From Dehalogenimonas alkenigignens (lineage in GTDB: Bacteria; Chloroflexota; Dehalococcoidia; Dehalococcoidales; Dehalococcoidaceae): 64,000 nucleotides of DNA. How positions within the stretch are numbered: position 1 is the first letter of the stretch; the number at the start of each line of letters is the position of its first letter. The notes under the pieces were generated by a model that saw only the letters and a list, made by a program, of their open reading frames with translations, had not been told where the DNA came from and ran no database searches. The stretch is from NCBI RefSeq assembly GCF_001466665.1, contig NZ_KQ758903.1, positions 431,684-495,683 on the forward strand. The letters run 5' to 3'. Positions 7,422-21,413 of the stretch are shown one piece after another. A program made the translations under genes and the position numbers.

Positions 7422-7751
7422 ATGCCCTTCAGACTCGGCCCGTTGGAACTGGTAATCATTCTGGTGATCGTGCTTCTGATCTTCGGTGTCGGCAAGCTGC
7501 CGCAGATCGGCAAATCGCTCGGCGAAGGTCTAAAGTCTTTCAAGCAGGGCGTCTCCGAAGACAGTGAAGAAGCCGCCAAGGAAAAAGAAGAGAATAAGAC
7601 CGAGCCTAAAGCGGAACAAAGCGCCGCCGAGGCGCCCAAGTCTGAAACCGGCGCTATGGACGAGCCGGCCAAAGTCAGCGAGGAAGATCTGGAAGCCTTC
7701 AAGAAGTGGCAGGCTGAACAGTCAGGCAAGACTGCTTCCAAAGCCAAATAG
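7422..7751 (+). CDS. tatA: Sec-independent protein translocase TatA (first paralogue)
   Basis: 109 residues with one N-terminal membrane helix (LELVIILVIVLLIFG) followed by the TatA hinge and amphipathic helix FGVGKLPQIGKSLGEGLKSF, then a long charged tail rich in Glu, Lys and Ala. TatA oligomers form the protein-conducting part of the twin-arginine pathway in the cytoplasmic membrane. A strong AAGGAGG site lies upstream. First gene of a four-gene tat operon (7422-9066). Its clearest local clients are RdhA and ApbE, both with twin-arginine signals. Confidence 0.93.
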   Translation: MPFRLGPLELVIILVIVLLIFGVGKLPQIGKSLGEGLKSFKQGVSEDSEEAAKEKEENKTEPKAEQSAAEAPKSETGAMDEPAKVSEEDLEAFKKWQAEQSGKTASKAK

Positions 7752-7795: not shown

Positions 7796-8032
7796 ATGAG
7801 ATTCGGACCACTGGAAATCATTATCATCATCGCCATTGTTTTAATCATTACCGGAGCGGCGTTCGCGCCGTCACTGGGCCGGAACCTGGGCAAAGGCGTC
7901 AAACAACTGCGCCAGGCGGTCGGCGGGGATGACAAGAAGACCAAAGTGATAAAAACCCTGTCGGACGGCGCGACGGCCGTGGAGGTCAAGCGGCGGGTTG
8001 CCGAACAAAAAAGTTCCGCCAAATCCGGTTGA
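7796..8032 (+). CDS. tatA: TatA/TatE-like translocase subunit (second paralogue)
   Basis: 78 residues: a single membrane helix (PLEIIIIIAIVLIITG), then an amphipathic segment SLGRNLGKGVKQLRQAV and a basic tail. The canonical Phe-Gly hinge of TatA is replaced by Thr-Gly (ITGAAFAPSLG) and the usual KLP segment is missing, so this copy has diverged from the first. It lies 44 nt downstream of tatA on the same strand. A specialised component or a regulatory TatA is possible; the family call is good, the subtype is not. Confidence 0.85.
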   Translation: MRFGPLEIIIIIAIVLIITGAAFAPSLGRNLGKGVKQLRQAVGGDDKKTKVIKTLSDGATAVEVKRRVAEQKSSAKSG

Positions 8033-8084: not shown

Positions 8085-8288
8085 ATGAATTTCTTCGGCA
8101 TGGGCACTTTCGAGATCATCACGATCCTCGTGATTGCCACCCTCATTTTCGGGCCTAACAAGATACCTGAATTCGCCCGCAAAGCCGGCGAATTCCTGCG
8201 CAGCTTCCGTAAAATCACCGGCGAGATGACCAAGGAGTTCACCAAGGCCATCGACAGCTCGCCGACCAAACCGCCGACCAAAAAATAG
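8085..8288 (+). CDS. TatA/TatB-like translocase subunit (third paralogue)
   Basis: 67 residues with one N-terminal membrane helix ending in IFGPNKIPEFARKAGEFLRS, then RKITGEMTKEF. The FGPxKxPE pattern with a Glu after the hinge proline is more TatB-like than the other two copies, although the C-terminal tail is short for TatB. It is 28 nt upstream of tatC, the usual place for tatB. In the Tat system TatB and TatC form the receptor for twin-arginine signals. Confidence 0.85.
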   Translation: MNFFGMGTFEIITILVIATLIFGPNKIPEFARKAGEFLRSFRKITGEMTKEFTKAIDSSPTKPPTKK

Positions 8289-8316: not shown

Positions 8317-9066
8317 ATGATCAACGCTAACGAAAAACGCCTGCCCATCACCGAACACTTCACCGAGATGCGGCAGCGCTTCCTCCGCTCCATCCTGGGC
8401 ATCGTCGCCGGCACTCTCATCGCCATGTTCTTCGGCGATCAAATTATCGAAATCCTGCTGGCCCCCGTCCCCGACACCCTCCGGCCCAATGTGCAGGCCA
8501 TTGACACGCTGGAGTACTTGAGCGTTTATTTCCGGACGGCCTTGACCGCCGGCCTGGTGCTGTCCATGCCCTGGCTGCTGTACCAATTTTTCGCCTTCCT
8601 GATGCCCGCCTTCACCCCGCGTGAGAAGCGGGCTATTCTCGTTGGCTTTCCATTCATCGTCGGCCTGTTCCTGGCCGGGGTAGCCTTCGCTTACTTCCTG
8701 GCCCTGCCTATCACCATTCAATTCCTCTTCGAGTTCGGCAGCGACGTGGTTAATGTCGCCCCCCGCATCAGCACCTACATCGACCTGGTGCTGCGGCTGC
8801 TGGTGGCCATCGGCCTGGCCTTCGAAATGCCGGTCATCCTGGGCGCCCTGTCTGTTGCCGGCATCGTCACCTCGAAGTGGCTGGCCGGCAAACGCAAGAT
8901 CTGGTTTGTACTGGCCTTCGTCATCTCCGCCTTCATCACCCCGACGCTGGACCCCATCACCCAGTCGCTCATCGCCGCGCCGCTGATTGTCCTCTACGAA
9001 ATCAGCATCTGGCTGACCAGGCTCATCGGCCGGCGCAAACCGTCATCGGTACCGGCCGTCGCCTGA
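8317..9066 (+). CDS. tatC: Sec-independent protein translocase TatC
   Basis: 249 residues with six predicted membrane helices. The N-terminal cytoplasmic segment LPITEHFTEMRQRFLRSI is the TatC signal-recognition region, and FLMPAFTPREKR is a conserved loop. TatC is the membrane receptor for twin-arginine signal peptides. It closes the tat operon and is followed by a new promoter at 9068. Its position beside rdhA and the Tat-signalled ApbE suggests dedication to respiratory enzyme export. Confidence 0.95.
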   Translation: MINANEKRLPITEHFTEMRQRFLRSILGIVAGTLIAMFFGDQIIEILLAPVPDTLRPNVQAIDTLEYLSVYFRTALTAGLVLSMPWLLYQFFAFLMPAFTPREKRAILVGFPFIVGLFLAGVAFAYFLALPITIQFLFEFGSDVVNVAPRISTYIDLVLRLLVAIGLAFEMPVILGALSVAGIVTSKWLAGKRKIWFVLAFVISAFITPTLDPITQSLIAAPLIVLYEISIWLTRLIGRRKPSSVPAVA

Positions 9067-9208: not shown

Positions 9209-10432
9209 ATGGTGCCGGATAATTTCTTCCGGCGGCACCGTTCCCGGATCATCTTCGGTTTAGCTTTGGCGCTGCTTTTGGGCGCCGCCGCTTACGGTCG
9301 GGCCAGCCAGGGTCTTGCCGGGTATGAAAATTTCCTCCCGGAACTGGCGCCGGAGGCCGCTGCTTTCAACATCGTCCGGTCTTCCGGCACCACCGTGGTT
9401 TACCAGACCGCCGACGCTTCAGGGACCGCCACCGGTTACATCACCGCCGCCGAAGGGCCCGGCTACGGCGGCCCGATGCATGTCCTGGTCGCCTGGACCA
9501 CCGACGGCGTGATTACCGCGGTTAGTGTCCCGGACCATCATGAAGACCTGCCGTGGTGGAACGTCCTGGTAAAGAGGGATTTCTTCGGCCAGTACGTCGG
9601 GCGCAGCTTTACCGAACCCATTCAGTTGTTCGAAGACATCGACGCCATGACGGGTTCGACCGTATCCTGCAACGGCGTCTCCATCGGCGTGCGCACCGGG
9701 CGGCTGGCGCTGGCGGAATACCTGGGCCAGCCTTACGACGGGCCGCCGGATCCCATCCGCATCGGCTGGCCGGAAATCCTGGTCGGCGCGGGCTTGCTGG
9801 GAGTAGTGGCCGTCCGGACGCTGCCGGGCATCCGCCGCCACAACTGGCCGAGGGTTTTCACGTTGATGTACGGCTTCGCCGTGCTCGGTGTCTGGTTGTC
9901 TATCCCGCTGTCGCTGACCAATATCGCCGCCTGGCTGATCGGCTACTCGCCGCACCTGCAAACGTTCTTCGTCATTTATATCGTCGTTTTCGGCTTCATC
10001 GGCCTGGCGGCTCTATTCGGTAAAAACTACTACTGCTTCTGGCTTTGCCCCTACGTCGCCGTCCAGGAACTGATCCATCTGACGTTCCGGGGCAAAGTTC
10101 GTCCCAATCCGGGCTTATTCAAACGGCTCAAAAATACCCGGTTCGCGCTGCTGTTCGTGGCGCTGTTCCTGGTGCTGGCTATGCGCAACCCGTCGGTTTC
10201 GGTGTTTGAACCGTGGAATGTCCTTTTCAGCTTCAAGGGCACCCCCGACCAGTGGGTACTGATGGTTTTGGCCCTGGTTTCGGCGGTGTTTATCTACAAC
10301 TTCTGGTGTCATTACCTGTGCCCGGTGGGGGCGGTTCTGGAACTGGTGATAAAAATTCGCAAGGGGATCATCGGACTATGGCCGGGACGGATCAAAAGGG
10401 AAGATCTCAAAAACGCGCCGACGCCTTCGTAA
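9209..10432 (+). CDS. NosR/RdhC-like membrane protein: FMN-binding domain plus NapH-type Fe-S motifs (copy 1)
   Basis: 407 residues. An N-terminal membrane anchor (~15-30) precedes an extracytoplasmic FMN-binding domain (~45-170) with GYGGPM and the flavinylation motif DAMTGSTVS; T151 is the expected covalent FMN site. Several membrane helices follow, with two cytoplasm-facing Cys motifs, CFWLCP and CHYLCP, as in NapH/NosR/PceC proteins. Such proteins carry electrons across the membrane. It is a paralogue of the protein at 12598-13791, with the same domain order and FMN residue number. RdhA lies between the two, on the other strand. An electron-donor role for RdhA is inferred. Confidence 0.88.
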   Translation: MVPDNFFRRHRSRIIFGLALALLLGAAAYGRASQGLAGYENFLPELAPEAAAFNIVRSSGTTVVYQTADASGTATGYITAAEGPGYGGPMHVLVAWTTDGVITAVSVPDHHEDLPWWNVLVKRDFFGQYVGRSFTEPIQLFEDIDAMTGSTVSCNGVSIGVRTGRLALAEYLGQPYDGPPDPIRIGWPEILVGAGLLGVVAVRTLPGIRRHNWPRVFTLMYGFAVLGVWLSIPLSLTNIAAWLIGYSPHLQTFFVIYIVVFGFIGLAALFGKNYYCFWLCPYVAVQELIHLTFRGKVRPNPGLFKRLKNTRFALLFVALFLVLAMRNPSVSVFEPWNVLFSFKGTPDQWVLMVLALVSAVFIYNFWCHYLCPVGAVLELVIKIRKGIIGLWPGRIKREDLKNAPTPS

Positions 10433-10503
10433 CCGTTATGGTTTTCATCGGCGCGCTGATGGCGCTGGCGGTGATTTTCAGCAAGCTGGCGGCGCTGGAG
10501 TAG
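10378..10503 (+). CDS. Possible 41-residue single-helix membrane peptide overlapping the NosR-like gene
   Basis: Out-of-frame ATG at 10378 overlaps the last 55 bases of the preceding gene and encodes a 41-residue protein: a charged N-terminus rich in Lys and Arg, then one hydrophobic helix (VTVMVFIGALMALAVIF) and a short tail ending KLAALE. The C-terminal helix of the GltD-like protein downstream of the second NosR-like gene ends in a similar way (VLLKAFE). It could therefore be a small subunit or the remnant of a larger partner. No clear ribosome-binding site; translational coupling would be needed. Confidence 0.4.
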   Translation: MAGTDQKGRSQKRADAFVTVMVFIGALMALAVIFSKLAALE

Positions 10504-10553
10504 GACGCGAGCTCGTGTAGGCCGAATTGTTTCGATAAAAGGCTGTTAGAACA

Positions 10554-10580
10554 GAGGACCTGCCCACTGGGCAGGTCCTC
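10554..10580. terminator. Strong hairpin between convergent NosR-like and rdhA genes
   Basis: GAGGACCTGCCC (10554-10565) and GGGCAGGTCCTC (10569-10580) form a perfect 12-bp stem with a 3-nt loop. It sits between two convergent genes and so probably ends both transcripts, although a clear U-tract is missing on either side. Confidence 0.65.
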
Positions 10581-10602
10581 CAATAAAAAGAGCTAACTGG
10601 TT

Positions 10603-12195
10603 CTAAATCTTGCGACCGCCACCTCGCAAAGTATTAATACCATAAATCGGAGTTTTCGATTGATTACTCCAGAAAGCATCCAAGTTTTCTTGAACATCTG
10701 GGCCGTCGATACCATAATCAAATTTAGGATACCCGAAGACACCATCCATGTCCTTGAAGAAACCATTGAACAGTGAGGTATTCGCGACAGTGGTCTTGAT
10801 TACTTCATGAATGACGGACTCAGTTCCATTTGCGAAAACACAGCGGGAACCACAGGCGAAGGAGCCGCATTTATTGATAGCCACAGATAGATTACAGTCG
10901 GCAGGGGAGAACCACCAGTGCTTCATGAAGCCAGGTTCATTAATACTCTGATATTCGTTTTTGTTCACTTTCGCTAGTTCCGGGTGTTTCGCATCGAAAG
11001 CTGACCGCCCCATCCACCGGTTCCAAGGCCCGATAGCTTCCCAAGTTGGGTCTCTAACGATGGGGCCAGTGGGATCACCCATGCGGCTGATGGCGCTGCC
11101 GGGACACATCTCGGCGCATTTCATACAATCAAAACAGAATTTGTGAATACCCGCTTCAATAGGATTGGTCGGTGCTAGCGGTAGATCGGTAACGATTGTA
11201 GCCGCAACTCCAAGTGAGGACCCGAACACAGGCGAGATGGAGGAGTACCAACGACCAACCTCACTAATACCACCCAAGACAGCAAAGGCGACGTTTTCGG
11301 AGAAGTTGTTGGTGTAGTCAAGAGGGCCATGCGCCAAATAACCCAATCCAGATATCCAACCCTGAAGTTGCCGCTGAATAATCCTACCATGCCCATAACG
11401 TCGGTCGGAGAAGTTGTTGTTGATAGAGTCATTGCTCATTTGGAGAGTATAGTTAATCGCCCATTTGGCTTTGTTAGGTAATACCCTCTTCCCTGCGCGG
11501 GGCGACTTAGAAGTCCCGGTCTCGCCTGTCTCATAACCGACAGGTACATCTTCCCAGAGATACGGTTTGCCATCATGGAAGTCGTGGGAGAAGATAAACT
11601 TGCTCATTGTGTCGTCAAGCTCGTGAAATGCGACGTCACATGCTCCATTCAGAAGTAAACCGGCTTTAATCATCTGGGCGTTTTCTTCAGGTGTGCCCTC
11701 CCAACGTGGAATACCCCTTTTATCAGGAGTCGTTACTACAGGGGGCAGGAATCCATTGGGTGAATCTTGCGAACTGGCATAGCCAAAAGTGCCCCGGTAA
11801 GCCATATTCCGGATACCACCCCAGCCTTTAGGCTGCGTTAACCCCTGTTTATCATATTCGGCTTTCTCTTTTGCGAACCGGTCGGCCGTTCCAGCGCCAT
11901 CACGATCATCTAACCATGCTTTAACCTCGGGGGTTCCTTGCCAGGAGCATTGAATCATATGACGTTGGTCAGTCCGAGTCAGTTTGCTATAGTCGTGATC
12001 TGCGGTCATGTCATATTGTGCACGCTCCTTGACCCACCAAGGGAAATTGTGGATAGGTCCCGGTTTTGATGCAATCAATTCATCTAAATCGTTGAACGCA
12101 GGCGCTGCCAGACTGGCGGCTCCCAGCCCGGCGCCGGCAATGCCGAGACCCTTCATGAATTCGCGGCGACTCAGGGTACCATGGAACTTGCTCAT
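10603..12195 (-). CDS. rdhA: Reductive dehalogenase catalytic subunit RdhA
   Basis: 530 residues; corrinoid/Fe-S enzyme that removes halogen from organohalides as the terminal respiratory step outside the cytoplasm. The Tat signal is LSRREFMKGLGIAG (residues 8-21) followed by a hydrophobic stretch. The first cluster motif is CFDCMKCAEMCP (C354, C357, C360, C364). The second is unusual: C434, C443, C448 and C452, giving C-x8-C-x4-C-x3-C where C-x2-C-x3-C is expected for the last three. AAGGAG lies 6 nt before the ATG. No rdhB anchor gene adjoins it. The gene is visibly A+T-richer than its neighbours, which suggests lateral acquisition. Substrate not predictable. Confidence 0.95.
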   Translation of the reverse strand: MSKFHGTLSRREFMKGLGIAGAGLGAASLAAPAFNDLDELIASKPGPIHNFPWWVKERAQYDMTADHDYSKLTRTDQRHMIQCSWQGTPEVKAWLDDRDGAGTADRFAKEKAEYDKQGLTQPKGWGGIRNMAYRGTFGYASSQDSPNGFLPPVVTTPDKRGIPRWEGTPEENAQMIKAGLLLNGACDVAFHELDDTMSKFIFSHDFHDGKPYLWEDVPVGYETGETGTSKSPRAGKRVLPNKAKWAINYTLQMSNDSINNNFSDRRYGHGRIIQRQLQGWISGLGYLAHGPLDYTNNFSENVAFAVLGGISEVGRWYSSISPVFGSSLGVAATIVTDLPLAPTNPIEAGIHKFCFDCMKCAEMCPGSAISRMGDPTGPIVRDPTWEAIGPWNRWMGRSAFDAKHPELAKVNKNEYQSINEPGFMKHWWFSPADCNLSVAINKCGSFACGSRCVFANGTESVIHEVIKTTVANTSLFNGFFKDMDGVFGYPKFDYGIDGPDVQENLDAFWSNQSKTPIYGINTLRGGGRKI

Positions 12196-12307
12196 TCTTA
12201 CTCCTTTTGTGTATTTTGTATCAATCCACTAATTTGAGGTCACCTTCGAGTTCCCATTCTTTTCTTCTTCGGTTCTTACCTCCCTTAGCAATTATTCCTA
12301 ACCTCCG

Positions 12308-12464
12308 GTTATAGGTTGTTAACTTCCACCAGTATGACTAATAATTCTTTAAAAAACATCGTACCTTGGTATTAGTACCAGTAAGCATTTATGCGTATTT
12401 TTCATTAAGAATTGTGGGTACCGCCCTAAATATTCCAGTGTTTGAATATCCAACTGGTACTAAT
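12308..12464 (-). promoter_or_regulatory. rdhA upstream region with repeated AYYAGT operator-like sites
   Basis: Part of a 402-nt gap between rdhA and the divergent gene. Read toward rdhA it holds ATTAGTACCAGT (12464-12453), its exact inverse ACTGGTACTAAT (12382-12371) and ATTAGT-CAT-ACTGGT (12343-12329). All are built from the hexamer AYYAGT or its complement. A possible -10, TATAAC, lies at 12313-12308, with no convincing -35, as expected for an activated promoter. The set looks like binding sites for an rdh regulator, but no regulator gene is nearby. Confidence 0.5.
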
Positions 12465-12488
12465 CATTCATCTTTATTCTTCGAGGTG

Positions 12489-12517
12489 TTGACACCGCAT
12501 CCCGCCGGATTTATAAT
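12489..12517 (+). promoter_or_regulatory. Consensus sigma70 promoter of the second NosR-like operon
   Basis: Exact consensus TTGACA (12489-12494), 17-nt spacer and exact TATAAT (12512-12517), pointing to the gene at 12598. Such a perfect promoter suggests strong constitutive expression, in contrast to the divergent rdhA. Confidence 0.8.
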
Positions 12518-12597
12518 CTGCCGACACAAGATTTTGCATTAGAAATAATAACCTTAACTATGGGCGGTGGCGGCTGGGCAAGGAAGCGAGGGCCGAA

Positions 12598-13791
12598 TTG
12601 ACACAGGGCAGTTTCTGGCAGCTCCACGGTAAAAAAGTCCTTATTATCGGTGCCGTCGTCAGTCTGCTGGGAGCCTGGACTTTCGGCCAGCTTAACATCA
12701 AGACCGATGTTGACAGCTATCTGCCGGAGGTGATGCCGGAAGCCGCCAGCTTTGAGCTCATCACCAGCAAAGCCGCTGACGGGCAGTACCTGTACTCGGC
12801 TGCTAACGGCGCCGGTCCAATCGGCTACGTCACCGCCGGAGAAGGGCAGGGCTACGGCGGGCCGATCATCGTTCTGGTTGCTTGGACTCTGGATGGTAAA
12901 ATCACCAATATCCAGGTTCCCCAGCATGAGGAAACCCCGGCCTGGTACAACCGCCTTTACACCGCCCAGTATTTTACTCAATATATCGGGCGGGAGTTTC
13001 TTGACCCGTTCACACTCGACGAGGACATCAACGCCGCCTCCGGGGCCACCCGCTCCTCCCACGGCGTCGCCGAGGGCGTTTATGAAGGCCGCCTGCTGCT
13101 GGCGGAACACCTCGGCCAGCCGTTTGTCGGCCCCAAGCAGCCAATCCAACTCGGCGCCCCTGAGATCGTCCTGCTGCTGGGACTGGCACTGGTGGTCATC
13201 TTCAGGATGGTGCCGGGGCTGCGGCAAAAACGCTGGCCGCGCTATGTCATGCTGGTTTACGGGTTGGTGTTTTTCGGCATCTGGCTCTCGGCGATGCTGT
13301 CGCTGATTAACTTCCTCGTCTTCCCCATCGGGTTCGCCCCTTCGCCGGCCACCAACCCGCTGCTGTACGTCATGGTCTTCGGCATCTTGGGTCTGGCCGC
13401 CATATTCGGCAAGAATTTCTGGTGCTTCTGGGTCTGCCCGTACTGCGCCCTGCAGGAAGGCGCCCATTTCCTGGGCGGCAGCCAGGTGCGGCCGATCTCC
13501 CGGCGCCAGCTGCTTTTACGCAATACCCGTTACATCATTCTCTGGGCGCTGGTGATGTTTGTTTTCATCTCCCGCCAGCCGCAGATTTCGGTCATCGAAC
13601 CCTGGAATACCGTTTTCAGCCTGGAAGGCAATCTGTCGCAGTGGCTGCTGGTGATCGCCACCCTGGGCGTCAGCCTGTTTATCTATGACTTCTGGTGTCA
13701 TTTCCTGTGCCCGGTAGGCGCCACCATGGATATCGTGCTTAAAATCCGCACCTGGACGGTCAACGCCATCGGACGGTTCACCGCCCGCTGA
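12598..13791 (+). CDS. NosR/RdhC-like membrane protein: FMN-binding domain plus NapH-type Fe-S motifs (copy 2)
   Basis: 397 residues with an N-terminal anchor, an extracytoplasmic FMN-binding domain (GYGGPI and flavinylation motif DINAASGATRSS, expected FMN on T151), then membrane helices with CFWVCP and CHFLCP. It aligns along its whole length with the protein at 9209-10432. The best start is TTG 12598, after an AGGG-type site; no ATG is available in frame. It is followed at 22 nt by an oxidoreductase gene and then apbE, the enzyme that attaches FMN to this motif, so the operon is functionally coherent. Membrane electron carrier; the terminal acceptor is inferred to be an exported enzyme such as RdhA. 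Confidence 0.88.
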   Translation: MTQGSFWQLHGKKVLIIGAVVSLLGAWTFGQLNIKTDVDSYLPEVMPEAASFELITSKAADGQYLYSAANGAGPIGYVTAGEGQGYGGPIIVLVAWTLDGKITNIQVPQHEETPAWYNRLYTAQYFTQYIGREFLDPFTLDEDINAASGATRSSHGVAEGVYEGRLLLAEHLGQPFVGPKQPIQLGAPEIVLLLGLALVVIFRMVPGLRQKRWPRYVMLVYGLVFFGIWLSAMLSLINFLVFPIGFAPSPATNPLLYVMVFGILGLAAIFGKNFWCFWVCPYCALQEGAHFLGGSQVRPISRRQLLLRNTRYIILWALVMFVFISRQPQISVIEPWNTVFSLEGNLSQWLLVIATLGVSLFIYDFWCHFLCPVGATMDIVLKIRTWTVNAIGRFTAR

Positions 13792-13813
13792 TCCCGGGGA
13801 GGACGGAGTAAAA

Positions 13814-15628
13814 TTGGCTAAAAATGACAGAAAAAACGTCCCGGTAGTCCCGGCTGAGGCTGTTGGACGCAGGCTCAAAAACTTCGGCGCCAACGAAGAG
13901 TTCAAGTGGTCCGAGGTCAAGTGCACCGCCTGCGCCCGCTGCAGCCGCGCCTGCCCGGTGGAGGCCATCACCGTCAGCCGTACCGACACTCTTAAAAAGC
14001 GTCTGCGCGCCGCTCCCTGCTCCCAGGCGTGCCCCGCCGGCCTCGACGTCTCCCGGTACGTCCGTTTCATCGCCGAAGGCAAGTATGATGAAGCCGCGGC
14101 GGTGATTCGGGAGCGGGCGCCGTTCCCTTACGTGCTGGGGCATATCTGCAAACGCCCATGCGAGTCCAGATGCCAGCGCGACGAATATGAAGGCTCCCTC
14201 CAGATCCGGGCCTTGAAGCGCATCGCCGCTGAAAACGATAAAGGCCTGTGGCGGAAAAACCTGAAAATCGCCCCGCCAACCGGTAAACAGGCCGCGGTCA
14301 TCGGCTCCGGCCCGGCCGGCCTGTCAGCCGCCTATTTTCTGACGCTGCTCGGTCATAAAGTCACCGTCTTTGAAGCCCTGCCGGACAAGGGCGGCAAGAT
14401 GCTTTCCAGCATTCCCGAATACCAGCTGCCCAAGACGGTGATGCGCCAGGAAATCGAGATTATCGAAAGCCTCGGCGTGGACATCCGCACCGGAAGCCGC
14501 GTCGATTCGGTTGAAAACCTCTTCAAGCAGGGCTTCGACACCGCGGTGCTGGCCATCGGCGTCCTCGGCTGGGGCAAGTCTTTGAAACTGCCCATTCCTG
14601 GCTCCGGCGACGAAGGCGTCATTGATGGCGAAGGTATAATGGACGCCGATTTGCCGCAGATTCTGGAGATCGGCAGACCCGCCAAATTAGCCCGGCGCAT
14701 AAACATCCTCGGCGGCGGCAGCCTGGCTTTCCGAATTGCGCTGGCCGCGGCCCGCGCCGGCGCCAAAGAAGTCCATATATTCGGCCAGGAGCATATCGGC
14801 GACCGGGAAGCCGATTCGTGGGAAGTCGATGAGGCGCTGGCCGAAGGCGTCGTCGTCCATTCCTCGTCGCTGTTTTATCGTGTCACCAGTGAAAATGGCA
14901 AAGTCACCGGCGTGACGGGCCAGAAGATCCGGGCTTTCGGATACGACCGGGACGGCCAGCTCCACTGGGACCCGCTGCCGGGCACCGAAGAGCATTACCC
15001 GGCTGACAAAGTGATCTCGGCCCTGGGCAAAACCGGCGACCGGCCTGCCGGCGACCTTGAGGTCTGCCGGAACGGCGTTTTTGCCATCGGCGACGCCGTG
15101 AACGAGCAGCGCTCAGTGATAGAATCAATCGCCGCCGGCCGCTGGGCGGCATCCATGGCGGATAAATACCTGGGCGGCGACGGCAACCTGGACCAGTCGC
15201 TGGCTCCGCCGGAATCTCCAAGGGCGCTAACCCCGATCCGGGAGGTGAAAAGGCGACAGCCGTCACCGGTTGAAGTCAAGCACGTGCGCATTGCCGACGG
15301 TTCGCTGGCCGCCTCGGAACAGACATTGACCGCCGGGCCGGCAATGGCAGATGCCGCCCGCTGCTTGAAATGCGACCTCTGCTACGATCTGAGCGATTAC
15401 CAGCTGGATGCCCGCGCCTGCGTTTTCTGCGGCCGCTGCATCGAGAGCTGCATGTGGAATGCCATCGTACCCGGCGGCGGCTATGCCTCAACCAGGAAAC
15501 GCGCCGAAGAAGCCGAAACCAAAGAACAGGCTGCCCGCCGCAGACCCCTGGCGTATGTGCTTACTATACTGGTTGCCGCCGGAGCGGTGCTGATCGCCGC
15601 CGTGGTGTTGCTCAAGGCGTTTGAGTAG
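13814..15628 (+). CDS. Membrane-anchored GltD-like FAD/NAD(P) oxidoreductase with ferredoxin domains
   Basis: 604 residues. Order: a ferredoxin-type motif CTACARCSRACP (C37-C47); GltD-like N-terminal Fe-S region (C69, C73, C112, C116, C120); FAD site VIGSGPAGLSAAYFL (~163-177); a second nucleotide-binding motif ILGGGSLAFRIALAAARAG; FAD-closing GVFAIGDAVNEQRS; C-terminal ferredoxin motifs CLKCDLC and CVFCGRCIESC; and one C-terminal membrane helix (~575-600). It resembles the glutamate synthase small subunit and NfnB family, but is tethered to the membrane and has no glutamate synthase partner. TTG start with GGAGGACGGAG upstream. It probably links cytoplasmic NAD(P)H or ferredoxin to the NosR-like protein. 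Confidence 0.87.
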   Translation: MAKNDRKNVPVVPAEAVGRRLKNFGANEEFKWSEVKCTACARCSRACPVEAITVSRTDTLKKRLRAAPCSQACPAGLDVSRYVRFIAEGKYDEAAAVIRERAPFPYVLGHICKRPCESRCQRDEYEGSLQIRALKRIAAENDKGLWRKNLKIAPPTGKQAAVIGSGPAGLSAAYFLTLLGHKVTVFEALPDKGGKMLSSIPEYQLPKTVMRQEIEIIESLGVDIRTGSRVDSVENLFKQGFDTAVLAIGVLGWGKSLKLPIPGSGDEGVIDGEGIMDADLPQILEIGRPAKLARRINILGGGSLAFRIALAAARAGAKEVHIFGQEHIGDREADSWEVDEALAEGVVVHSSSLFYRVTSENGKVTGVTGQKIRAFGYDRDGQLHWDPLPGTEEHYPADKVISALGKTGDRPAGDLEVCRNGVFAIGDAVNEQRSVIESIAAGRWAASMADKYLGGDGNLDQSLAPPESPRALTPIREVKRRQPSPVEVKHVRIADGSLAASEQTLTAGPAMADAARCLKCDLCYDLSDYQLDARACVFCGRCIESCMWNAIVPGGGYASTRKRAEEAETKEQAARRRPLAYVLTILVAAGAVLIAAVVLLKAFE

Positions 15629-15652
15629 TCAGCCGATGTCAAAGGAACAAAT

Positions 15653-16687
15653 ATGAACAAGCCGCTTTCCCGACGGGATTTTATACGCCTCAGCGCCGTC
15701 GGCGCCGGGGTGATCGCCCTGGGCGGTCTCGGCGTCAGGGAACTGATTCAAGCCGGCGCCGCCCGGGAGGTCAGCGAAACCAGGGCTCTCCTGGGCACCT
15801 TCATCAGCATAAAAATCATCGAAACCGAAGAGGCTCCGGCCAAAGCGGCCATCTCCGATGCTTTCGCCGAAATCGAACGGCTCTCGGCCATCCTGTCGCG
15901 CCATGACCCGGCCAGCGAGCTTTCAATCCTCAACCGCGCCGGATTCATCGAATCGGCCTCTCCGGAACTGCTGGGCGTGGTGCAGAAAGCAGGCACCTTC
16001 GCCGAAATCACCGGCGGAGCCTTCGATGTCTCCGTGCTGCCCCTGCTCGATCTGTACGCCATGAGTTTCGCCGACGGCGGCGGCCCGCCCGTCGAGCGCG
16101 ACATTCAGGCAGCCAGAGAGAAGGTGGGGTACTCTTTGATAGAGATTAACGGCCGCCGCGTATCGCTGGCGGCGCCGGGCATGGGCATCACCCTTGACGG
16201 CATCGCCAAGGGCTTTGTCGTCGACCAGGCTGCCGCCCTGCTGCGCGCCCGCGGCTTGACCCAGGTACTGGTTGAGGCCGGCGGCGATATGGCCCTCCGG
16301 GGCATGAGGGAGGACGGCCAGCCCTGGAAGATCGGCCTGACCCATCCCAGGGCTATGGCCGGCTACTATGAGGTTTTTTCGACCTCCAACGACTGCCTGG
16401 CGACATCCGGGGATTATGAAAACGCCTTCACCCCTGATTATTCCTGGCATCATATTATAGATCCCCGGATCGGGCACTCACCCAGAGAGGTGGCCTCGGC
16501 CACGGTCATCGGGCCTGACACAACCTACGCCGATGCTATGGCCACCGCCGCCATGGTGCTCGGCGTTTCCGACTCGCTGGCGCTGTTTGAAAAACTGCCG
16601 GGAGTTCAGGCGCTGCTGATCGATAAAAACATGAAGAGACATTTTACCAGCGGTTTCTATAACCTGGCCAGGGCAGCCGCGTCCTGA
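15653..16687 (+). CDS. apbE: FAD:protein FMN transferase ApbE with twin-arginine signal
   Basis: 344 residues. It transfers FMN from FAD to a Thr or Ser in RnfG/NqrC/NosR-type domains outside the cytoplasm. The N-terminus LSRRDFIRLSAVGAGVIALGG (residues 5-25) is a Tat signal. Catalytic-domain features: LLGTFISI, the Gly-rich LVEAGGDMALRG, THPRA, TSGDYENAF and the C-terminal DAMATAAMVLG metal/FAD site. The two substrates are visible nearby: the DINAASGAT and DAMTGST motifs of the NosR-like proteins. Third gene of the operon from 12598. Export by Tat is unusual enough to note, since many ApbE proteins are Sec lipoproteins. Confidence 0.93.
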   Translation: MNKPLSRRDFIRLSAVGAGVIALGGLGVRELIQAGAAREVSETRALLGTFISIKIIETEEAPAKAAISDAFAEIERLSAILSRHDPASELSILNRAGFIESASPELLGVVQKAGTFAEITGGAFDVSVLPLLDLYAMSFADGGGPPVERDIQAAREKVGYSLIEINGRRVSLAAPGMGITLDGIAKGFVVDQAAALLRARGLTQVLVEAGGDMALRGMREDGQPWKIGLTHPRAMAGYYEVFSTSNDCLATSGDYENAFTPDYSWHHIIDPRIGHSPREVASATVIGPDTTYADAMATAAMVLGVSDSLALFEKLPGVQALLIDKNMKRHFTSGFYNLARAAAS

Positions 16688-16707
16688 ATTAAAAGGGGGA
16701 AGTGGCC

Positions 16708-17013
16708 ATGGCAGACAGCACTTTAATTAAAAGCCTGTTAGTAACCTCCCCGATAATAGGCGCCGCTGTCATCAGCCTGGTGTTCAGCGTCAGCGTGGCT
16801 TTAAATCCTGAACCGACCGCTACCTTCTCACCGCCGACTCCAACGACTACCCGCCCCCCGGCTACAACCACCCGGCCTCCCACCACCACCCCGCCTCCGG
16901 CGACGACGACCGCGCCGCCGGTGTCCACTCCGCCGCCAGCCAGCACTAACCCGCCGACGACGCCTCCCCCAACGACCACGCCAGGCGTAACAGTGCCGCC
17001 AGTCGATTTTTAA
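16708..17013 (+). CDS. Membrane-anchored Pro/Thr-rich protein of unknown function
   Basis: 101 residues. One N-terminal hydrophobic helix (SLLVTSPIIGAAVISLVFSV) is followed by a ~65-residue low-complexity tail made almost only of Pro and Thr in TTTRPP- and TTTPPP-like units, ending VPPVDF. GGGGGAAG precedes the ATG at 16708. Last gene of the NosR-like/GltD-like/ApbE operon, 20 nt after apbE. Such tails are usually extended and often glycosylated, so it could be a spacer or tether holding a redox protein near the S-layer. No known family recognised. Confidence 0.7.
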   Translation: MADSTLIKSLLVTSPIIGAAVISLVFSVSVALNPEPTATFSPPTPTTTRPPATTTRPPTTTPPPATTTAPPVSTPPPASTNPPTTPPPTTTPGVTVPPVDF

Positions 17014-17051: not shown

Positions 17052-18932
17052 CTACTCCAGCTTGCGCGCCGGCACCCGGACGTTCTCCTGGCGCCTGGTG
17101 ATGCCTTCCTGGTCCAGCCTGGTCAGAAAAGGGATGGAGTATTTCCGGGAAAAACCGGTGAGGGCGGCCATGTCCTGGATGGCGATCTGGCCTTTTGACT
17201 TGAGGACGTCGATGACCTTTTGCCGGGTGGCGCGGTACTGGGCGGCCGTCATCAGGATGCCCTCCGGCAGTTCGACCACCCTGCCCTGCTCCAGCATATA
17301 GCGCAGCACCGGAGAGGCCTCCGGCACCGATTGCAGCAGCTCGGTCCGGGTCGGCGGCGCGGCCGGGTCCTTGTCCGCCGCCGCCAGGATGCGCTTTTCC
17401 ATCTCTTCCTGGCTGCCGGACAGCGCCGGCTTGTGGGTCGAAAGAGCCAGCACGTCGCCGGCGCGGATGATCTTCTTCTGGCTGGCGAGTTCGTCAACCA
17501 GGGCGGCGAACAGTTCCGGCGGCAGCGGCAGTTTGGCCGCCGCCTCGGCCTGCGGCAGGCCTTTTTTCAAAGGCTCAGCCTGATGTACCGCGGCCAGGCT
17601 GCTGATCAACCGTTTTTGCTGTTCCTGCCAGAAGGCCCCGCCGATAAGGTATTCGCCTTTCAGCAGGATATCGCCTTTCTTGGTTATTGCCTCGATCGTT
17701 CGGCCTAGAGCCGCCTCATTCAGGGCGGCCGCTCTTAAAAAGCCCCGCCGTAAAGCAAAATGAGTCTTGGAAAGCTCGGTGCGGATGATGGAATCGGCAT
17801 CGAGCCTCCGGCGGGCGGCCAGGCGCGCCAGCCGGTCGGCCGCATTTTTAAGCTGGTAGCGCTCCGCCGCGGGATCAAGGATCCTGCCGCCGCCGATGGT
17901 TTCAGCCGGGGAGCTTTTCCTCAGGATGAAGCGCTCGCCGATGGTGGCCGCGGCTTCGCGGTCGAGCCTGAGTTGCACCAGCGCCGGGGCGCCGGGAATT
18001 ACCTCCCTACCTTCCAGGGCGATGACCCGCGCCGGCAGCTCCGCCGTCTCGAAGAAAAGCGATACTTCGGCGCCGGTCTTAAGGGGCTGCTTCACCGTTG
18101 GCAGCAGCGTCAGGTCGGCATCAAGGTAGCGCGACAGCGGCGTCTCCTGACCCTGCCGGACGATGATATCGCCGCGTTCCAGCTCGTCTTTTTTAACTCC
18201 AGACAGGTTCAAAGCGACGCGGGAGCCCGGGGCCGCCCGCTGGAGATGTTCCTTGTAGCTCTCGATGCCGCGGACGTGGGCGGAAAGCCCCCTGGGCAGG
18301 ATAGTCAGCGCGTCGCCGACCGAAAGATGCCCGCCGTGGAGGGTGCCGGTGATGACCGTGCCGGAGCCTTTGATGTTGAACACCCGGTCGATGGGCAGGC
18401 GCGGCTTGCCGGCGTCTTCCTGTCTGACATAGCGGGCGAGGTTTTCGATCGCCGCTTTGAGGCTGTCGATGCCGGCGCCGGTCCTGGCCGAAACCTCGAT
18501 TATGGGGGCTTGTTCCAGGGAGGTGCCGCCAAGATGGCTGGCAATATCGGCCTTGACCATATCCCGCCAGTCGGCCTCGGCCAGGTCCATCTTGTTCAGG
18601 ACGACCAGGCCTCGATTGATTCCCAGTAAATCGATGATTTGAAGATGCTCTTCCGTTTGAGGCATCCAGCCGTCGTCCGCGGCCACGATGAGCATGACGG
18701 CGTCGATGCCGGTAAGGCCGGGGATGACGTTGCGGACGAAGTGCTGGTGGCCGGGAACATCCACCAGGCCCACCTTCTCGCCGGACGGTAAAGCGAACCA
18801 GGCGAAGCCAAGGTCAATGGTCATGCCGCGCTCTTTTTCCTCCGGCAGCCGGTCAGGGTCGATGGAGGTCAGCGCCTTGACGATGCTCGACTTGCCGTGG
18901 TCGATATGGCCGGCGGTGCCTAAGGTGAGCAA
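17052..18932 (-). CDS. selB: Selenocysteine-specific elongation factor SelB
   Basis: 626 residues. It delivers Sec-tRNA to UGA codons marked by a SECIS hairpin. GTPase motifs: GHIDHGKSSIVKAL at residue ~8, DVPGHQHFVRN and NKMDL, followed by EF-Tu-like domains. The C-terminal ~250 residues form the winged-helix region that binds SECIS RNA (for example DVLKSKGQIAIQDMAALTGF). It is last in a selC-selD-selA-selB order on the minus strand, 39 nt after selA. The presence of the full set predicts selenoproteins in this genome, at least SelD here. Confidence 0.95.
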   Translation of the reverse strand: MLTLGTAGHIDHGKSSIVKALTSIDPDRLPEEKERGMTIDLGFAWFALPSGEKVGLVDVPGHQHFVRNVIPGLTGIDAVMLIVAADDGWMPQTEEHLQIIDLLGINRGLVVLNKMDLAEADWRDMVKADIASHLGGTSLEQAPIIEVSARTGAGIDSLKAAIENLARYVRQEDAGKPRLPIDRVFNIKGSGTVITGTLHGGHLSVGDALTILPRGLSAHVRGIESYKEHLQRAAPGSRVALNLSGVKKDELERGDIIVRQGQETPLSRYLDADLTLLPTVKQPLKTGAEVSLFFETAELPARVIALEGREVIPGAPALVQLRLDREAAATIGERFILRKSSPAETIGGGRILDPAAERYQLKNAADRLARLAARRRLDADSIIRTELSKTHFALRRGFLRAAALNEAALGRTIEAITKKGDILLKGEYLIGGAFWQEQQKRLISSLAAVHQAEPLKKGLPQAEAAAKLPLPPELFAALVDELASQKKIIRAGDVLALSTHKPALSGSQEEMEKRILAAADKDPAAPPTRTELLQSVPEASPVLRYMLEQGRVVELPEGILMTAAQYRATRQKVIDVLKSKGQIAIQDMAALTGFSRKYSIPFLTRLDQEGITRRQENVRVPARKLE

Positions 18933-18971
18933 TCAACCGTCCTCAGTGCGGGCTTTGTTCCCCATAAATCA

Positions 18972-20363
18972 TCAAGAACAGGTTTTAGAATTTCCCGCCG
19001 CCGCCATCGCCATAACCAGTTCATCATCCTGCGCCGGGAAAACCGTCCGCAGGTCGATGACGAATCTGCCTTCGTGGACTCTGCCCAGCACCGGCGGCGA
19101 GCCCAGCCGCAGCCGGCGGCAGAAATCGTCCATCGAGCCTTTGACCTCGACGGCGACAAGGCGCGTCGGCAGGGTCTCGTCCGGCAGCGATCCGCCGCCG
19201 GCCAGGCTCTCGCCGTCGACGACCTCGGCGGAGAAACCGGCCCCGGCCAGTTTTTCGACCAGGTCATCGCCGCGGCGGGCCAGGCTTTCCAGCGTCTCGG
19301 CCATCATGCGGTAGACCGGCAGTTCGGCGGTCTGCCCCTTGAGGTACTGGAGAATGGTCGCCGTAAGGGCTATGGCGGCGTATTTGTCGATCCTGAGGGC
19401 TCTCAGCAGGGGATTCTTGCGCAGGCGGTCGATATACGCCTTTTTGCCCAGGATGATGCCGGACTGGGGTCCGCCCAGCAGCTTATCGCCTGAGACGCAG
19501 ACGATGTCACAGCCGGCGGCCAGAGCCTCAGCGACGGTCGGCTCGTGACTCATCCCGAAGGCCGCGGTATCGGCCAGGGCGCCGCTGCCCAGGTCGTAGA
19601 CCAGCGGCAGGTCGAACTGCCTGGCCAGCTCTTTAAGTTCCGGCAGCGCGGCGTCGTGGGAAAAGCCGCGGATAGCAAAGTTGGAGCGGTGGACGGCAAG
19701 GAGCATGGCTGTTTGATCGGAAACCGCCGCTTCGAAGTCCCGGATGAAGGTCTGGTTGGTGGTGCCCACCTCGCGCAGGACGGCGCCTGAGGCGGCCATA
19801 ACCTCCGGCACCCGGAAGCCGCCCCCGATCTGCACCAGTTCGCCGCGGGAAACGATGACCTCCCGGCCCCTGGCCAGGGTGGACAGGACGAGTAAAACCG
19901 CCGCGGCGTTGTTGTTGACCACCAGGGCGCTCTCGGCGCCGGTGGCCATTTCCAGCAGCTTTTCCATGGATTGGGCGCGCACACCTCGTTCGCCCGTCGC
20001 CAGATCGAGTTCAAGGGCGCAGTAGCCGCCCAGCAGCTTCGAGAGCGCCTCGACGGCTGCCGGGGGCAGCGGGGCGCGGCCGAGATTGGTATGTAGAATG
20101 ATGCCGGTGGCATTGATTACCGGCTCCAGTAAGCCGGGCCATGCGGCAGCCAGGTGATAACTTACCATCTCGACGACAGCCTCAAAAGGCGGCACCGCGC
20201 CGCCGGCGGCGGCGTGCTGCCTGATGCGGTCGACGACATCCCGGACCGTGGCCGCGACCACCGGATGGGAATAGCGCCCGATAGCCGGCGCCAGCGCCGG
20301 GTCGGAAAGAACCTTCTCGACCGAAGGGATTTTCCGCAGTTCGCTCTGATTTTCGTTGGGCAT
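18972..20363 (-). CDS. selA: L-seryl-tRNA(Sec) selenium transferase SelA
   Basis: 463 residues, typical for bacterial SelA. A PLP enzyme that converts seryl-tRNA(Sec) to selenocysteinyl-tRNA(Sec) using selenophosphate. Family features: INATGIILHTNLGRAPLP, LVVNNNAAAVLLVL, VYDLGSGAL and SGDKLLGGPQSGII, whose Lys carries PLP. Starts 9 nt downstream of the selD stop, so it is clearly in an operon with selD. Confidence 0.95.
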   Translation of the reverse strand: MPNENQSELRKIPSVEKVLSDPALAPAIGRYSHPVVAATVRDVVDRIRQHAAAGGAVPPFEAVVEMVSYHLAAAWPGLLEPVINATGIILHTNLGRAPLPPAAVEALSKLLGGYCALELDLATGERGVRAQSMEKLLEMATGAESALVVNNNAAAVLLVLSTLARGREVIVSRGELVQIGGGFRVPEVMAASGAVLREVGTTNQTFIRDFEAAVSDQTAMLLAVHRSNFAIRGFSHDAALPELKELARQFDLPLVYDLGSGALADTAAFGMSHEPTVAEALAAGCDIVCVSGDKLLGGPQSGIILGKKAYIDRLRKNPLLRALRIDKYAAIALTATILQYLKGQTAELPVYRMMAETLESLARRGDDLVEKLAGAGFSAEVVDGESLAGGGSLPDETLPTRLVAVEVKGSMDDFCRRLRLGSPPVLGRVHEGRFVIDLRTVFPAQDDELVMAMAAAGNSKTCS

Positions 20364-20372
20364 TTTCTGCCT

Positions 20373-21413
20373 CTATTCTGCGACGATTATTCGCCCTTTG
20401 GGTTCGGCGACGACCTCGCCGATGATGGCGGCGGCCGGGAAACCTCTGGCTTTGATGTTATTAACCATCTCATCAGCGATGCCCGCAGGCGCGGCGATCA
20501 GCAGTCCGCCCGAGGTCTGCGGGTCGAACAATACGTCCAGCATCCATTCCTCCGCCGGAAATTGAATGTCAAGCAGTCCCTGGCGGTATTCCCGGTTGGA
20601 GTAAGCCCCCCCGGGCACCAGCCCGGCTTTGGCCCAGCCCTCGACGCCGGGCATCAGCGGAATCGCTTTCCAGTTCATTTTATACCCGATTCCGCCCTGG
20701 GTCACCATCTCCGCGGCATGACCCAGGAGCCCAAAACCGGTGATGTCGGTGGCGGCATTGGCGCCCAGTTCATTCACCGCCTCGGCGGCGGCCTTGTTCA
20801 GGGTGGACATCTGAGCGATAACCGCGGTCGTCGCCGCCTCGTCGAGTCGCCCGCCCTTGAGGGCGGTGAGCAGGATGCCGGTACCCAGCGGCTTGGTGAG
20901 AATCAGTTTATCCCCCGGCTTGGCTCCGCCCTTGGTCAGCACCCTTTTGGGATCGATAACGCCGGTGACGGAAAGGCCGAATTTGATCTCGTCGTCCTTG
21001 ACCGAATGGCCGCCGACCAGGGCGCATCCGGCCTCATCGAGCTTTGACACCGCGCCTTCGAGGATCAAGCGCAGTGTCTCGATCTCTATCTTGCCGGTGG
21101 GAAAGCCGACGAAACTCATGGCCGTCACCGGCCTGCCGCCCATGGCGTAGACGTCGGACAGCGAGTTGGCGGCCGCCACCTGCCCGAAGGCAAAGGGGTC
21201 ATCCACCACCGGAGTGATGACGTCTATCGTCTGGACGATGGCGATATCAGGCGTGAGCCGATAGACCCCGGCATCGTCTGGAGATTCCAGGCCCACCAGC
21301 ACCTCAGGGTAGGACTTGAGCGGCAAGCCGCACAGCGCTTTAGCTAGGTCACCCGGACCTATCTTGGCCGCTCAGCCGGAGTACGCGGAGTATTCGGTCA
21401 GGCGTTTAGCCAT
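20373..21413 (-). CDS. selD: Selenide, water dikinase SelD containing selenocysteine (UGA at codon 14)
   Basis: 346 residues when the in-frame TGA at 21374-21372 is read as Sec. It makes selenophosphate from selenide and ATP. From the ATG at 21413 the N-terminus reads MAKRLTEYSAYSG-Sec-AAKIGPG, and the Sec sits where SelD has its catalytic Cys/Sec before the essential Lys. A SECIS-like hairpin lies 10 nt after the TGA. A caller that treats TGA as stop would begin near 21326 and lose the active site. Later SelD features include DVYAMGGRPVTAMSF, LVGGHSVKDDEIKFG and DITGFGLLGHAAEM. GGGGGTG precedes the ATG. Confidence 0.95.
21345..21361 (-). promoter_or_regulatory. Bacterial SECIS hairpin of selD
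   Basis: On the transcript, 10 nt after the UGA, TAGGTC-CGGGT-GACCTA forms a perfect 6-bp stem with a 5-nt loop containing GGU. Position and loop agree with bacterial SECIS elements recognised by SelB. Confidence 0.8.

Follow-up and report, generated by a model that had tools for sequence, protein, structure and literature searches.

In the stretch of Dehalogenimonas alkenigignens DNA analysed here (the window, 64,000 nucleotides), the genes that follow a twin-arginine translocation (Tat) operon encode two flavin mononucleotide (FMN) binding membrane proteins of the RdhC type (RdhC1 and RdhC2), a GltD-like flavoprotein and the FMN transferase ApbE, with a reductive dehalogenase gene (rdhA) between the two paralogues. 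At the end of rdhC1 we found a predicted overlapping gene for a single-helix protein of 41 amino acids, which appears to be new. We tentatively propose that RdhC is a two-part unit, in which a six-helix flavoprotein is completed by an obligatory seventh helix; its source would be either a gene for 40–45 amino acids hidden at the 3′ end of the rdhC gene itself or the tail of a GltD-type reductase. The latter arrangement would make GltD the cytosolic site of electron entry and RdhC2–GltD a dedicated quinone-free transmembrane conduit to exported proteins. Just as tentatively, the gene set may be a transmembrane module for flavin electron transfer that is conserved in Dehalococcoidales and has a housekeeping role, and not an rdhA operon; it would provide a low-flux supply to Tat-exported redox proteins. 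The architecture of the module is well supported; its function and the direction of flow we infer.

A small gene at the end of rdhC and the tail of GltD

The four genes that bear on this proposal are as follows (coordinates refer to the window):

9209–10432, plus strand: RdhC1, 407 amino acids, predicted extracytoplasmic FMN domain, six helices, two cytoplasmic CX3CP motifs (Pfam, motifs, topology, tree)
10378–10503, plus strand, –1 frame relative to rdhC1: small overlapping gene, 41 amino acids, one membrane helix, MAGTDQKGRSQKRADAFVTVMVFIGALMALAVIFSKLAALE (conserved frame, background scan, pN/pS)
12598–13791, plus strand: RdhC2, 397 amino acids, paired with GltD, RnfG-like FMN domain (Pfam; structure match)
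13814–15628, plus strand: GltD-like flavoprotein, iron–sulfur (Fe–S) sets at both termini, flavin adenine dinucleotide (FAD) domain, tail helix 582–600 (Pfam, NCBIfam, motifs, hydropathy)

The small frame is short, finds no match in the Pfam or NCBIfam models and is known from sequence alone, as would be expected of a chance open frame. Such an origin is highly improbable, however, because the same –1 frame, with its start inside the rdhC end and an encoded helix, was found at 18 of the 19 rdhC genes that are not of the RdhC2 type (12 RdhC1 genes from two genera, one gene each from families f26 and f20, and four RdhCs linked to rdhA). When 305 long frames were scanned as background, 16 matches were obtained, each of them at an rdhC end, and other long frames gave none. 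Moreover, the starts (16 ATG, two GTG/TTG) were preceded by a purine-rich stretch, and the proportion of nonsynonymous changes (pN) lay below that of synonymous changes (pS) in all eight pairs tested. The one exceptional site, in genome G075 (strain 195; presumably D. mccartyi 195; locus L086, 2346–4094), encodes an in-frame fusion of RdhC with a Diphthami_syn_2 domain of about 170 residues. The small gene was found at none of the 14 RdhC2-type genes. A –1 ribosomal frameshift as the source of an extra helix was dropped as a candidate once the start codon and the purine-rich stretch had been found inside the rdhC end. The spacing of locus tags leaves room for one tag, DEALK_04880, so the small gene may be carried as an unnamed hypothetical.

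When the profile of the small protein was aligned with the GltD tail by hhalign, a score of 29 over 42 columns (probability 54%) was obtained, while the six RdhC helices scored 6 or less and column shuffles of either kind gave 0 of 150. The tail helix itself was present in all GltD orthologs with a complete C-terminus, including the unlinked ones of Dehalococcoides. Free helix and GltD pairing were mutually exclusive: RdhC2 genes go with GltD and lack the small gene, and the other RdhCs have it. Two further genomes conform to this pattern: G067 has the small gene and lacks a full-length GltD, and in G013 a GltD is present and the small gene is missing. It thus seems that the partner of each RdhC is a free helix or else the GltD tail. 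Most simply, an RdhC would require an additional helix, and GltD, which has one in its tail, would use it to dock to RdhC2.

RdhC1 and RdhC2 are RdhC-type proteins

Pfam assigned an FMN_bind domain and two Fer4_5 stretches to each of the two proteins. An earlier note on this DNA, made from the sequence alone, had described them as two proteins with FMN motifs and paired cysteine motifs, which our analysis confirmed: DAMTGSTVS in RdhC1 and NAASGATRS in RdhC2 both conform to the full motif [DN]X2[ST]G[AS]TX[ST], with Thr151 in each, and CX3CP occurs at residues 276 and 367 in both. Hydropathy analysis yielded six hydrophobic segments per protein, with the CX3CP motifs on positively charged loops; the charge distribution predicts that both motifs lie inside and the FMN domain outside. 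In PceC, the FMN domain was measured to be outside (PMC5928378). The predicted FMN domain of RdhC2 (residues 1–173) resembled that of RnfG (9eri_G; Z 14.7, 171 residues, root-mean-square deviation (rmsd) 6.6) and also matched 7zc6_G (Z 12.2, rmsd 3.6).

By the sequence criteria of PMC5928378 both are RdhC-type proteins. The genetic criterion of that family is an rdhAB(C) cluster context, and here rdhA lies on the opposite strand, rdhB is missing and the arrangement varies among genomes. We therefore regard RdhC1 and RdhC2 as RdhC-type proteins, not as the cognate C subunit of this rdhA. The phylogenetic tree, which was rooted by midpoint only and contains some long branches, placed RdhC2 together with the RdhC of G013 in one group (support 99/99) and RdhC1 in another (84/90), with the rdhA-linked RdhCs outside both. 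The label "NosR-like" in the earlier note held as far as the FMN domain and the NapH-like layout with CX3CP are concerned, which are shared with NosR. It failed as a name, since the NosR model gave only 44–48 bits against a cut-off of 1000 and since both proteins, at about 400 amino acids compared with 680–700, lack the C-terminal ferredoxin part (no Fer4 domain follows the helices); RdhC is the better designation.

The GltD-like flavoprotein

Pfam resolved the GltD-like protein into Fer4, Fer4_20, Pyr_redox_2 and a C-terminal Fe–S part. The motifs correspond to an N-terminal CX2CX2CX3CP ferredoxin and to a C-terminal CX2C plus CX2CX2CX3C, and hydropathy revealed one C-terminal helix (582–600), in agreement with the membrane-tethered flavoprotein with at least two ferredoxin sets that had been noted earlier. 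Its nearest solved relatives were subunit A of NfnABC and of StnABC (9bov_A: hmmsearch E 6e-115; structure Z 25.9, 280 residues, rmsd 3.9). The predicted model was of modest quality (pLDDT 68.5), and its poorly modelled Fe–S ends were kept out of the interpretation. With these subunits and with GltD/NfnL the protein shares the FAD domain, the GltD-type Fe–S domain and the C-terminal Fe–S part; it differs in its extra N-terminal ferredoxin domain, in its C-terminal membrane helix and in its genetic neighbourhood, where RdhC2 and ApbE adjoin it and no NfnB or NfnC gene was found beside it. In addition, the YRR of NADP-binding relatives is replaced by FGQEH, which makes NADPH doubtful as the donor, and the GGG-type nucleotide motif and the FAD motifs are retained. 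NADH or ferredoxin would thus be better guesses.

Layout and conservation of the module

The genome of D. alkenigignens is a single contig of 1,851,576 bases. The remaining features of the module, together with the gene in the gap, are:

7422–7751, plus strand: TatA/E (PF02416 63.9 bits; TIGR01411 67.8 bits)
7796–8032, plus strand: second TatA-like subunit, 78 amino acids (open reading frame (ORF); TIGR01411 E 5e-9)
8085–8288, plus strand: third TatA/B-like subunit, 67 amino acids (ORF; TatA/E 62 bits, TatB 45 bits)
8317–9066, plus strand: TatC (PF00902 194 bits; TIGR00945 above cut-off)
10603–12195, minus strand: rdhA, reductive dehalogenase with Tat signal (TIGR02486 209 bits, cut-off 160)
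12489–12517, plus strand: predicted perfect sigma-70 promoter TTGACA-17-TATAAT for rdhC2-gltD-apbE (12/12 match)
15653–16687, plus strand: ApbE, FAD:protein FMN transferase, Tat signal (PF02424 242 bits)

Three further assignments of the earlier note were thereby borne out: a Tat translocase upstream of RdhC1 (three TatA/B-like genes plus TatC, from Pfam, NCBIfam and ORFs), a Tat-signalled ApbE and an rdhA between the paralogues. This ApbE is the sole one of the genome, and RdhC1 and RdhC2 are its only FMN_bind proteins. Likewise, ApbE was a single-copy gene within the module gene set in 15 of 15 genomes (in G051, on a separate contig). A perfect TTGACA-17-TATAAT was present 67–80 nucleotides before rdhC2 in five genomes, among them G116 and G123, where it is kept though neither rdhA nor rdhC1 precedes rdhC2. 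RdhC2, GltD and ApbE are hence predicted to form a unit with its own promoter, parted from RdhC1 by rdhA.

Synteny in other Dehalogenimonas genomes, the comparison proposed in the earlier note, gave a divided answer: the order Tat-RdhC2-GltD-ApbE was conserved in all eight genomes of the genus, that of the window included, and rdhA was variable. Six of the eight have RdhC1 in the space between Tat and RdhC2; in G116 and G123 it is relocated. All three Dehalococcoides genomes showed Tat-RdhC1-RdhC2-ApbE with GltD elsewhere. Three further families carried Tat-RdhC-GltD-ApbE (f13, G013), RdhC1-RdhC2-GltD-ApbE (f26, G026) and Tat-RdhC-ApbE without a full-length GltD (f20, G067). Published collinearity between Dehalogenimonas and Dehalococcoides genomes is at most 35% (PMC13390414), so that the conserved order of the module stands out.

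A full-length RdhC match was obtained in 15 of 151 sampled genomes, and a reductive dehalogenase (TIGR02486) exceeded the cut-off in 46 of 151; from both tables we read that about 33 of these 46 members of the order lack a full-length RdhC. Conversely, G026 (87% complete) and G067 (93%) contain the module and gave no PF13486 match. With the caution that draft genomes demand, neither the module nor rdhA appears to need the other. Beyond Dehalococcoidales, no RdhC was found in the class and phylum samples at the E-values used, and a plasmid search returned distant NosR/NapH-like matches only. A contig scan with short patterns derived from one sequence gave two relatives only.

The rdhA gene in the gap

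The rdhA of the window qualifies as a reductive dehalogenase by its TIGR02486 score, its Tat signal and an Fe–S motif; no rdhB is adjacent to it. A published table (PMC4918011) lists DEALK_04890 of D. alkenigignens IP3-3 as a protein of 530 amino acids without rdhB and with about 81% identity to a WBC-2 protein. The rdhA of the window matches this entry in length (530 amino acids), in the missing rdhB and in its identity of roughly 81%. It is 81–82% identical to a protein of G064.

Several features set rdhA apart from its surroundings. The GC content at third codon positions was 0.51, compared with 0.74–0.84 in the flanking module genes. The number of rdhA genes between RdhC1 and RdhC2 varies: G000, G109 and G084 have one each, G064 has two and G102 three, and in G093 and Dehalococcoides the gap is free of them. 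Compared with G109, the nearest relative, the flanks are mostly 88–99% identical and positions 12101–12597, comprising the signal peptide and the upstream region, 83–95%, whereas the rdhA body reaches only 49–75%, indicating that the body was swapped and the start kept. The exchanged region corresponds to 10503–12195 in the window and 7308–10341 of L035 in G109, the promoter and Tat-signal region being nearly unchanged; a radical SAM gene is inserted beside rdhA in G109. In G084, the gap (L045, 6539–9305) contains transposase-like genes and a C-terminal rdhA remnant, which suggests that it is an insertion hot spot. A dedicated rdhA operon was ruled out by strand, GC content, promoter and synteny. 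From these sequence comparisons rdhA looks like a later, variable passenger in the module, which it may or may not use.

The idea of a flavinylated membrane electron-transfer module put forward in the earlier note therefore stands, with its own ApbE and a one-helix cytoplasmic entry protein. That the module is built around a reductive dehalogenase does not, since rdhA is a variable low-GC insert, absent from the gaps of G093 and Dehalococcoides, and since two genomes with the module have no detectable rdhA. The note had overlooked the strand, the low GC content and the variability of rdhA, the splitting of RdhC1 from the promoter-bearing unit by this gene, the small gene at 10378–10503 and the RdhC name.

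Still another reading is that the module works for a Tat-exported partner that has no connection with RdhA (FDH-N/OmeA, the maturation of Hup and the upkeep of thiols are examples), in which case rdhA would be nearby by coincidence. Although the strict linkage to Tat in four families and the presence of the module in G026 and G067 without a detected rdhA would agree with this, both genomes are drafts, most carriers of the module are organohalide respirers, and the canonical RdhCs of the same genomes adjoin rdhA in the same orientation. We consider this reading unlikely.

Proposed electron transfer and its alternatives

In the mechanism that we propose, ApbE would be exported by Tat and attach FMN to Thr151 of RdhC1 and RdhC2 on the outer face of the membrane. 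GltD would dock to RdhC2 via its tail helix, which would occupy the position held in RdhC1 by the free small helix, and would receive electrons in the cytoplasm from reduced ferredoxin or a pyridine nucleotide. These could then pass through the Fe–S clusters of GltD and the cytoplasmic CX3CP motifs of RdhC2 to the outer FMN, and from there, at low flux, to Tat-exported redox proteins. The likeliest use would be the reductive activation or upkeep of RdhA and other exported corrinoid or Fe–S proteins. The main respiratory current is thought to run elsewhere, from Hup through FDH-N/OmeA to RdhA. Direction, donor and acceptor of the electrons are deduced here.

Read as the main quinone-free respiratory chain, the model of the earlier note has NAD(P)H or ferredoxin as the donor, and electrons reach exported RdhA by way of GltD and the RdhCs. 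The parts are the same and the topology is plausible; the potential of ferredoxin is sufficiently low for the reduction of RdhA, whose Co(II)/Co(I) couple lies at about –350 to –370 mV (PMC5928378), and rdhA occupies the gap in five of six genomes. This route is nevertheless disfavoured by published work. In Firmicutes, PceA outnumbers PceC about 50-fold (PMC8905343), and a PceA2B2 complex is active with PceC absent (PMC10624902). The main text of the D. mccartyi complexome paper mentions neither FMN nor flavin, NosR, glutamate synthase or ApbE (PMC6005880), and the complex isolated from strain BRE15M of D. alkenigignens is given, in the passages that describe it second-hand, as Hup, RdhA, an anchor and FDH-N, with no RdhC (PMC13390414). 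Together with the many genomes of the order that carry a reductive dehalogenase and no full-length RdhC, these reports make a main chain rather doubtful, and a low-flux supply fits them better.

Flow in the reverse direction has also to be weighed, in which electrons from outside (H2 via Hup, or formate) would enter at the outer FMN and travel inward via RdhC2 and GltD, so that ferredoxin or NAD(P)+ is reduced for use in biosynthesis. The nearest solved relatives of GltD are reversible transhydrogenase subunits, and Hup and FDH-N face outward (PMC13390414). However, cytoplasmic hydrogenases (PMC13390414) and NfnBA (PMC5736913) are encoded as well and could do the same with no membrane route, and in the literature electrons are held to move outward through NapH, NosR and RdhC (PMC5928378). 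Reverse flow thus appears decidedly improbable.

Several observations weigh against a housekeeping conduit with low flux. The rdhA gene lies in the gap in five of the six genomes with adjacent RdhC1 and RdhC2, and rdhA genes of related types have been retained at this site, so that the two may be functionally tied; the genomes in which no rdhA was found are draft assemblies (completeness 87% and 93%). GltD is unlinked to RdhC2 in Dehalococcoides. The RdhC2 proteins of G064 (DAAAGVTRS) and G093 (DSVAGATRS) deviate from the flavinylation motif before the Thr, which is kept. The similarity of helix and tail is moderate, and membrane helices are easily alike. Finally, the proposed FMN attachment, complex formation and electron flow are read from sequence.

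Relation to known systems

The members of the RdhC family already include Dehalogenimonas proteins, and apbE in a Tat operon has been noted in Dehalobacter (Buttet et al. 2018, PMC5928378). RdhC1 and RdhC2 share with RdhC/PceC the outer FMN domain, the motif [DN]X2[ST]G[AS]TX[ST], six helices, two CX3CP motifs, a length of about 400 amino acids and the lack of a C-terminal ferredoxin domain (PMC5928378). They differ in that RdhC2 is tied to a membrane-anchored GltD and not to rdhAB, in forming clades of their own apart from the rdhA-linked RdhCs, and in the small overlapping helix gene. With the NapH-like flavinylated systems (Meheust et al. 2021, PMC8238504) the module has in common a PF12801 membrane protein with N-terminal FMN_bind and an adjacent ApbE, the features that define those systems; unlike them, it has a GltD-type entry subunit with a tail helix, which the main-text passages of that paper do not name (GltD is absent from them), and its host is quinone-free. 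The statement of the earlier note that the gene set was undescribed as a unit therefore needs qualification: the RdhC family, the Tat–apbE association and NapH-like systems were known (PMC5928378, PMC8238504), and for the pairing of RdhC with GltD no describing paper was found in the parts of the literature consulted.

Two open questions in organohalide respiration are the role of RdhC and the way in which low-potential electrons reach exported proteins in quinone-less bacteria. The RdhC2–GltD pairing suggests a concrete cytosolic electron donor for RdhC that is open to test, and the small helix gene is a candidate for a missing RdhC subunit, possibly overlooked by proteomics. An rdhA beside rdhC in Dehalogenimonas need not indicate a functional pair.

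Neighbouring genes

Positions 16702–17013, after apbE, hold an ORF of 103 amino acids that has a single hydrophobic segment and a tail rich in Pro and Thr; several relatives share only its start. The module is followed directly by SelB-, SelA- and SelD-like ORFs on the minus strand (17052–21326); they were named after the published sel operon, SelA and SelD by that name only. The position of SelB next to the module is kept in five other Dehalogenimonas genomes.

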